In this document: positions 10,174-14,165 of the stretch, piece by piece
Layout of the letters: every line of letters starts with the position of its first letter
Position numbering within the stretch: position 1 is the stretch's first letter
Assembly (NCBI GenBank): GCA_016874935.1
Contig: VGSS01000011.1
Coordinates: 1 to 41,714, forward strand
Direction of reading: 5' to 3'
Length of the DNA: 41,714 bases
From: Deltaproteobacteria bacterium
Lineage (GTDB): Bacteria; Desulfobacterota; BSN033; UBA1163
Notes under the pieces: generated by a model
Seen by the model: the letters and a program-made list of their open reading frames with translations, nothing else
Database searches by the model: none
What the model was told of the DNA's origin: nothing
Program-made: the position numbers and the translations under genes

Positions 10174-10596
10174 TCAAGAAACATACCCTAAAAAATCCTG
10201 TGGCGAGACAATCTTGCATGATATTCCATTGCTTTTCAGTTGGTCTTGCGAAATGCTAAGCAAGTCTTTGTCTCCCGTGACCAGGAAATCGGCTCCTGTC
10301 TCCTTACACAGAGAGAGATAATGGTCATCCTTGGGATATCTTGATAAAACCACAGGGGTTAAAAGGGAAACAGGTGTTGCCAGAGTCAATAATTGTTGGA
10401 TTTTCTCATGGATGAATGAGAGTTGTTCTTCGGAAAGTTTTTTTGAAAGTCCGGGCAGGACTCCTATTAATTCCCTTATGATCGTCTCCGACACATAGAC
10501 TTCATGACTTTCCAGGGCTCGAACAACTGCTTCCAGAGGCTTTCCTCCAAAAGCAGCTGAGATGATCACATTGGCATCAACGATCACCTTAGCCAT
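10174..10596 (-). CDS. PIN-domain toxin-like ribonuclease
   Basis: A 140-residue PIN protein of the putative toxin-antitoxin group. The conserved acidic residues are visible: Asp in IVDANVIISA, Glu in SETIIREL, Asp in YPKDDHYLSL and Asp in VTGDKDLL. These build a metal-dependent RNase site. It overlaps the end of the upstream antitoxin-like gene by 8 bp, a typical toxin-antitoxin arrangement. The RNA target is unknown. Confidence 0.88.
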   Translation of the reverse strand: MAKVIVDANVIISAAFGGKPLEAVVRALESHEVYVSETIIRELIGVLPGLSKKLSEEQLSFIHEKIQQLLTLATPVSLLTPVVLSRYPKDDHYLSLCKETGADFLVTGDKDLLSISQDQLKSNGISCKIVSPQDFLGYVS

Positions 10597-10822
10597 AGAT
10601 CTTCTTCCTGGCTTGGTCGAGCGCTTTGAGCGCTTCTTTTTTTGAAACTCCTGCCTCGCTTAACACTCTTCCAATTTCCAAAAGGATGATCTCCGGGCTA
10701 TTTTCCTCAACCGGGGTGAGGCGGGCAATCGGTCTTTTCCGTTTCAATACCACGATCTCACTCCCTTCATTTAAATATCTCACGACATCCTCTTTGAATT
10801 CTCTGACACCCACAAATTTCAT
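10589..10822 (-). CDS. Phd/YefM-like antitoxin partner of the PIN protein
   Basis: A 77-residue protein whose N-terminus (MKFVGVREFKEDVVRYLNEG, then IVVLKRKRPIARLTP) matches Phd/YefM-type DNA-binding antitoxins. The C-terminal helix (SKKEALKALDQARKKIYG) would hold the toxin. The open frame starts at 10852, but the ATG at 10822 follows GGAGGTGG with good spacing. It is divergent from htrA, with about 140 bp between the start codons. Confidence 0.82.
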   Translation of the reverse strand: MKFVGVREFKEDVVRYLNEGSEIVVLKRKRPIARLTPVEENSPEIILLEIGRVLSEAGVSKKEALKALDQARKKIYG

Positions 10823-10899
10823 CTTCGCCACCTCCGGAGTAAATGTTACCACAAATGTGGGAATAATGCAAAAGCCTTTGAGACGAAGATTTCAAACAT

Positions 10900-12565: not shown

Positions 12566-12964
12566 TCAACCTGCGGCTTTCACATACCTCATTCTTAAAT
12601 CGAAAAGGATTTGTTCGATAAATTTCTCTTCCTCTGGAGTCAAATTCCCCTTTGTCTTCTCTTTAAGCATCCCGATGAGGTCGATGGTCTGTTTGGCTAC
12701 GGGAAGATTTTTTGACTGTTTTTGAGTAAAGGGATCCTCGATCTCTCCCAATTGGATGAGGGCAGATGTGCTAAGCGACAAAATCAAATTCGCAAAATTG
12801 ATCTCCGGAAGAGGGCCCTCCTCTTCCGGGATTTCTTCTTTTATTGGCTCCTCCTTCATCTCATCTTTGGGGGAAACCTTTTCCTCCTCTTTTTGGGCAG
12901 TAAACCTCTTGTCCCTCACAACAAAACTCTTTTCCGTCTCATTATTTCTCTTTTCGTCAGCCAT
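12566..12964 (-). CDS. DUF1844 family protein
   Basis: A 132-residue protein. The first ~55 residues are a highly charged, probably disordered Glu/Lys tract. The rest (INFANLILSLSTSALIQLGEIEDP, then AKQTIDLIGMLKEKTKGNLTPEEE) is the DUF1844 helical core known in deltaproteobacteria and planctomycetes. Function is unknown. It is divergent from rpoH and shares the upstream region that carries CIRCE. Confidence 0.85.
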   Translation of the reverse strand: MADEKRNNETEKSFVVRDKRFTAQKEEEKVSPKDEMKEEPIKEEIPEEEGPLPEINFANLILSLSTSALIQLGEIEDPFTQKQSKNLPVAKQTIDLIGMLKEKTKGNLTPEEEKFIEQILFDLRMRYVKAAG

Positions 12965-13045: not shown

Positions 13046-13102
13046 TTGACTTTGATAAATCGATATATTATATTTTTAGCACTCTCTCTTTTGGAGTGCT
13101 AA
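13046..13102 (+). promoter_or_regulatory. rpoH promoter with perfect CIRCE operator
   Basis: TTGACT (13046-13051), a 17-bp spacer and TATATT (13069-13074) form the promoter. Immediately downstream, at 13076-13102, lies TTAGCACTC-N9-GAGTGCTAA, an exact CIRCE inverted repeat. CIRCE is the binding site of the heat-shock repressor HrcA, and here it covers the expected transcription start. The hrcA gene is not in this window. Confidence 0.95.
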
Positions 13103-13125
13103 TTAATCGATATGGGGTTTATATA

Positions 13126-13977
13126 ATGTCCACACTGCCTTCTGTCAAGAATTCTCTTGATACTTATCTCGTACAGATCAATCAGTTCCCCCTCTTAACA
13201 CCCGAAGAGGAGTTTAGTCTTGCCAGAAAATATCGTGAACACAATGATATTGGCGCGGCACATAAATTAATTACAGCAAACTTGAGATTTGTTGTCAAGG
13301 TCGCCCTTGAATATAAGTCTTATGGCGTTAAACTTCTTGACCTCATCCAGGAGGGAAATATAGGGTTGATGATGGCGGTCAAGAAATTTGACCCTGACAA
13401 AGGAAACAGGTTCATCTCGTATGCCATCTGGTGGATCAGGGCCTTTATGCAGAATTTTATCATCAAGACCTGGAGCCTGGTGAAGATAGGAACCACCCAG
13501 GCCCAGAAGAAACTTTTTTACAAAATCGGAAAGGTGAGAAAGGCGCTCGAATCTGACCGGGAGAATGAAGAGAAGTATGAGCTTTTAGCCAAAGATTTAG
13601 ATGTTCCCAAAGAAGATATCATCGAGATGGAGCAGAGGATGGCCGCAAGGGATCTCTCCCTCGATGCACCTTTTGACGAAGGAAAAGAACTGACGCATCT
13701 CGACCTCCTTCAGGAAGAATCTCCCAATCAGGAAGAAATGCTGGCTCATGAACAGGAGAAAGAGGCCCGGGAAAGGGAGGTCCAGAAGGCATTGAAACGT
13801 TTAAACGAAAAGGAAGTCTTCATCATTAAAAACAGGGTGATGTCCGACGAACCCCTCACTCTCCAGGAGATTGGCACCCAGCTTAAACTTTCGCGGGAGC
13901 GGGTCAGGCAGATTGAGAGTGAGGCGCTAAAGAAGTTAAAAAGGGAGATCGGCTCCAGCATGCAACTGCAAGCCTAA
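13126..13977 (+). CDS. rpoH: Heat-shock sigma factor RpoH (sigma-32 type)
   Basis: A 283-residue sigma factor close to the usual RpoH length. Region 2 (NLRFVVKVALEY, LIQEGNIGLMMAVKKFDP, FISYAIWWIRAFMQNFI) binds core enzyme and the -10 element. An RpoH-box-like QKKLFYKIGKVRKAL follows. Region 4 has the helix-turn-helix LTLQEIGTQLKLSRERVRQI. The frame opens at 13096 inside CIRCE; the ATG at 13126 (MSTLPSVKNSL) matches the family start. It directs RNA polymerase to heat-shock genes. The CIRCE operator places it under probable HrcA control. Confidence 0.93.
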   Translation: MSTLPSVKNSLDTYLVQINQFPLLTPEEEFSLARKYREHNDIGAAHKLITANLRFVVKVALEYKSYGVKLLDLIQEGNIGLMMAVKKFDPDKGNRFISYAIWWIRAFMQNFIIKTWSLVKIGTTQAQKKLFYKIGKVRKALESDRENEEKYELLAKDLDVPKEDIIEMEQRMAARDLSLDAPFDEGKELTHLDLLQEESPNQEEMLAHEQEKEAREREVQKALKRLNEKEVFIIKNRVMSDEPLTLQEIGTQLKLSRERVRQIESEALKKLKREIGSSMQLQA

Positions 13978-13998
13978 AAGGGTCTGCGAGGGCATTAG

Positions 13999-14127
13999 AA
14001 ATAACCAATCACCAAATTCCAAAAACCAAATAATCACCAATGGCCAATACCCAAAAAAAGAATTCGATCATTAGTAAATTGATTATTGGAAATTATTTGG
14101 ATATTGGTGCTTGGTTATTGGAATTTA
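13999..14127. repeat. Word-array stem-loop built of ACCAATAACCAA-type repeats
   Basis: The left arm (about 13999-14053) repeats words like AACCAATCACCAAATTCC. The right arm (about 14079-14127) repeats their complements, such as TTGGTTATTGGAATTT. It lies between rpoH and the FmdB-type gene, with the same layout as 12416-12563 but an unrelated sequence. Confidence 0.65.
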
Positions 14128-14165
14128 AAGTAATCGCATGAACTAGATTGGAGGAGGTTGTCGGA

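Follow-up and report, generated by a model that had tools for sequence, protein, structure and literature searches.

The best explanation of the results presented here is that, in a class of Desulfobacterota-like bacteria, HrcA represses rpoH alone and the heat-shock sigma factor RpoH drives the chaperone genes together with hrcA, a reading that we consider probable. The parts of it that are seen in the sequence are the CIRCE operator, its position, its conservation, its occurrence once per genome and a motif shared by the chaperone genes.

The CIRCE operator and the rpoH promoter

In the window (the whole stretch of DNA analysed, 41.7 kb), rpoH is located at 13126-13977 on the forward strand and encodes a heat-shock sigma factor of the sigma-32 family with 283 aa. 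The product presents the Pfam sigma-70 regions 1.2, 2 and 4, and its score with the RpoH equivalog model TIGR02392 (334.1 bits) is above the cut-off of 323.1. The gene is preceded by a sigma-70-like promoter on the same strand, TTGACT-N17-TATATT (13046-13074), in which a 17-base spacer separates the -35-like hexamer TTGACT (13046-13051), whose TTGAC is kept throughout the family, from the -10-like hexamer TATATT (13069-13074).

The preliminary description had placed a perfect CIRCE directly after this -10, and this was confirmed. The element is located at 13076-13102 on the forward strand, beginning one base past TATATT and ending 23 bases before the rpoH ATG (13126). It is an inverted repeat, TTAGCACTC-N9-GAGTGCTAA, with both arms perfect, and its complete sequence is TTAGCACTC-TCTCTTTTG-GAGTGCTAA. 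No other match with up to three mismatches was found in the 41.7 kb of the window, and 0.01 matches are expected in shuffled sequences. The predicted transcription start of rpoH (around 13080) is within the left arm, and the transcription start is the usual location of CIRCE operators. A longer rpoH reading frame has a GTG start at 13096, which would fall inside CIRCE and is unlikely; the ATG at 13126 is favoured. Considering the perfect palindrome, its position after the -10 and its conservation across the class, 13076-13102 is likely to be a DNA operator through which HrcA would act on the transcription start of rpoH.

Conservation of CIRCE at rpoH

The search set of the class consisted of 23 genomes, 20 of which yielded rpoH. 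CIRCE is directly upstream of rpoH in all 20 of these genes, 19 times in the N9 form and once, in G013, in an N8 form. The G013 element presents perfect arms and an 8-base middle (locus L171 upstream of rpoH, and L081, which is the same sequence), and it could serve to test how strict HrcA is in recognizing the spacing. In the three class genomes without CIRCE, the bin contains neither rpoH nor its neighbour, the DUF1844 gene, so a contig is probably missing. The idea that four class genomes had lost CIRCE was rejected, as three are these bins and the fourth is the genome with the N8 element.

In the alignment of 19 class sites, hardly any variation was seen at the 18 arm positions, while the 9-base middle varies freely; the arm changes present in some sites (C to A, G to A) are uncompensated. 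The CIRCE of the window is identical to the one of the sister genome G007. Concerning a wider sample, CIRCE is also present at rpoH in 68 of the 80 named rpoH relatives, and in 79% of these 68 loci the best -10 ends between -4 and +1 of CIRCE, versus 13% in shuffled sequences. The RpoH tree unites the class with L092-L094 in a single group (support 100/96) in which every member has CIRCE. Second RpoH-like genes were observed in two class genomes (L176 in G015:C205 and L177 in G018:C66).

One recognisable operator per genome

Exactly one N9 CIRCE per genome was found in 19 class genomes allowing up to two mismatches, and it always adjoins rpoH. The groES gene, which is usually present in two copies per class genome, is located away from it. 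No CIRCE was found at groESL or at the hrcA-grpE-dnaK operon of the class, and in the groES and hrcA upstream sequences examined CIRCE scores were no better than those of shuffled sequences, even with 8- and 10-base middles. The check for CIRCE at groES and dnaK proposed in the preliminary description was therefore negative in the class, which leaves rpoH as the only recognisable HrcA target, a more unusual situation than that description supposed. Judging from the distribution of its operators, HrcA seems to act in this class as a single-target switch on rpoH and not as a parallel repressor of chaperone genes. It could have further targets with diverged operators outside the patterns searched, such as the N8 site of G013.

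Beyond the class, 26 further genomes were searched. Most of the other CIRCE-bearing families of the phylum have the element at groESL. Geobacter- and Desulfuromonas-type genomes present three or four CIRCE sites, and those sampled are at rpoH, groESL or hrcA. Four of the genomes, including G031 and those of L092-L094, have one CIRCE, at rpoH, and three Syntrophaceae-type genomes have zero.

Occurrence of hrcA and alternative readings of the site

The preliminary description had named the absence of hrcA from the genome as evidence against its proposal. Taken literally, this is what was found, since hrcA gave no match in this genome bin (91% complete), but grpE is likewise absent from it. Of 40 relatives, 33 gave an hrcA match, among them most members of the genus, and the sister genomes carry hrcA-grpE-dnaK in a row. 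Because grpE is also missing and the sisters carry the three genes, hrcA is more likely to have been missed in the binning than to have been lost from this genome. Hence, it is very unlikely that CIRCE is a relic, unused after the loss of HrcA in the organism: the missing hrcA match would agree with a relic, but the missing grpE points to a lost contig from a bin of that completeness, and the gene order of the sisters, the perfect arms and a site that is the same as in G007 and kept across the class all argue against it.

The palindrome at the 5' end could also be read as an RNA hairpin in the leader that sets the stability or translation of the rpoH mRNA; in other systems, hairpins of CIRCE have been connected with the stability of the mRNA. 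Nevertheless, a transcript starting around 13080 would be without part of the left arm, the fold of the leader and early coding RNA is not better than those of shuffled sequences (z = -0.6), and the arm changes of some class sites are uncompensated, all of which makes this hairpin function highly improbable. An RNA thermosensor in the rpoH leader was rejected because of the same fold result and the lack of an Rfam match around rpoH. As for the divergent DUF1844 gene (12566-12964, reverse strand; PF08899), the preliminary description had suggested that CIRCE could affect it too. The element is within the common intergenic region and the rpoH/DUF1844 synteny is preserved in families f1 and f2, but CIRCE is around 80 bp upstream of the likely DUF1844 start, versus 23 bases between it and the ATG of rpoH, and in family f3 and G031 it remains with rpoH when no DUF1844 match is present inside the 3-kb locus. 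The suggestion is thus unsupported; control of DUF1844 by CIRCE is unlikely, the gene is probably outside it, and there is scarcely any chance that CIRCE serves DUF1844, alongside or in place of rpoH. The reading of the site as an HrcA operator on rpoH is the one followed below.

Two other features were observed in this region. Between rpoH and an FmdB-like gene there is around 170 bp of inverted-repeat DNA (13978-14149) with arms at 14005-14048 and 14078-14121 that are 75% complementary. In the sister locus L011 the gap between both genes is only around 18 bp, so this stretch looks like a small insertion. On the reverse strand, 10174-10852 encodes a PIN-domain-like protein and a small Phd-like partner, which, from their translations, resemble a toxin-antitoxin pair.

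A promoter-like motif at chaperone and protease genes

Alignments upstream of groESL, clpB and hrcA revealed the motif TTGNCAA-N11-ATGATTAT, which is common to the two groESL copies, clpB, hrcA, htpX and lon. In the class it gave 172 matches with up to one mismatch, versus 9 for a reversed-pattern control. With the same threshold, it is upstream of 19 of 20 groES genes (full upstream sequence examined), 14 of the 16 second copies of this gene and 14 of 19 clpB genes, and all nine hrcA genes have it upstream when up to two mismatches are allowed. A background of 257 kb gave no match with up to one mismatch and nine with up to two. The motif is also directly before htpX in six genomes, including this one (at C119), and before lon in three; neither gene was used to define it, and both names come from reading the translations, with no family search. 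It is absent from the rpoH promoter.

The motif retains a sigma-70-like -35 and spacing, and it does not match the -10 of Escherichia coli sigma-32 (CCCCAT). The complete E. coli consensus, CTTGAAA-N11-16-CCCCAT, gave few and inconsistent matches, with none good upstream of most groES and hrcA genes. A part of the motif (TTGACAAA with a weaker -10) is also present at those hrcA genes that carry a CIRCE of their own. From this distribution we infer that TTGNCAA-N11-ATGATTAT is the RpoH-type promoter of the class. A class-specific RpoH change at what we take to be the position of E. coli K130, which is Q here, was rejected as the cause of the changed -10, as Geobacter-type RpoH also has Q.

On the other hand, HrcA could repress rpoH via CIRCE while sigma-70 transcribes the chaperone genes, with GATGATTAT binding another heat-shock regulator and rpoH being a side branch. 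The TTGACA-like -35 of the chaperone promoters and their 17-base spacing to a TA-rich -10 would fit this arrangement, as would the lack of an E. coli-type sigma-32 consensus before the majority of the groES and hrcA genes. However, the fixed 11-base gap between the motif halves resembles a sigma recognition pattern, the -35 of clpB is TTGCAAA or TTGAAAA and not TTGACA, and the recurrent motif matches inspected are mainly heat-shock genes, including htpX and lon. Transcription of the chaperone genes by sigma-70 is therefore considered rather doubtful, and transcription by RpoH is preferred.

Some additional observations were made at these loci. The motif was also seen before the gene of an exported, conserved 403-aa protein with no assigned function (L256 and L258, in G013:C90 and G015:C21). 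Moreover, most family members conserve AAGGAGGTGGTG, a near-perfect ribosome-binding sequence, around 100 nt upstream of groES in the first groESL copy (L045; also L036-L054), and this may represent a leader peptide or a leader element of another kind. Rfam gave no match around groES, including the AAGGAGGTGGTG leader.

Proposed circuit

GroEL is established in other bacteria as the factor that keeps HrcA active. In unstressed cells of this class, HrcA maintained in this way by GroEL would block the housekeeping promoter of rpoH. Under heat shock, GroEL would be titrated, HrcA would be released and RpoH would rise. RpoH would then transcribe both groESL copies, clpB, htpX, lon and the hrcA-grpE-dnaK operon from TTGNCAA-N11-ATGATTAT, and the newly made GroEL and HrcA would turn rpoH off again, closing a feedback loop. 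In this scheme, we infer the binding of HrcA, the function of GroEL as thermometer and the recognition of the motif by RpoH.

The idea that HrcA nests the sigma-32 gene under the negative heat-shock pathway was already in the preliminary description. It is strengthened by the anatomy of the site, its presence at 20 of 20 class rpoH genes and the fixed geometry of promoter and operator, but hrcA is absent from the bin and the CIRCE sites expected at groES and dnaK were not found.

Comparison with known systems

Heat-shock control by the repressor HrcA and by the activator sigma-32 is commonly presented as two strategies that run in parallel and overlap, in which groESL is the one constant target of HrcA. 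Compared with the HrcA/CIRCE system of the Bacillus subtilis type, the operator is the same and is at the transcription start, and the hrcA-grpE-dnaK operon is present in the sister genomes. However, the chaperone operons and hrcA present no recognisable CIRCE here, and the target is a sigma factor. With the proteobacterial sigma-32 regulon, the class shares an RpoH orthologue and a common promoter-like motif at groESL, clpB, the dnaK operon, lon and htpX. It differs in the predicted transcriptional control of rpoH by HrcA, in the -10 element, which is GATGATTAT and not CCCCAT, and in that the regulon seems to include hrcA.

Concerning the delta-proteobacteria, a survey from 2004 predicted CIRCE at rpoH in Geobacter sulfurreducens (PMC545781). 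The CIRCE of that predicted regulon is also perfect at rpoH, there at -51 from the translation start, but unlike here it is found at groESL and hrcA-grpE-dnaK-dnaJ as well. In the same survey, groESL was the only constant member of the HrcA/CIRCE regulon in delta-proteobacteria (PMC545781), a statement from which this class departs, as groES loci and CIRCE do not coincide in it. Hence, CIRCE at rpoH is an already known kind of arrangement, and its single-target form over a whole class looks new. On balance, we favour the idea that the whole class moved HrcA from the chaperone genes to a single rpoH operator, with hrcA among the RpoH targets, a feedback loop with one input and a changed RpoH promoter, TTGNCAA-N11-ATGATTAT.

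Only the gene of the activator seems to be left under the repressor, which would make these bacteria a natural case of the shrinkage of a regulon to one node. The genomes searched can be arranged as a series of this shrinkage, with three or four CIRCE sites in the Geobacter-type relatives, one in related lineages and none in a further lineage. For the biology of the class, this predicts that the loss of HrcA would affect all chaperones only through RpoH.
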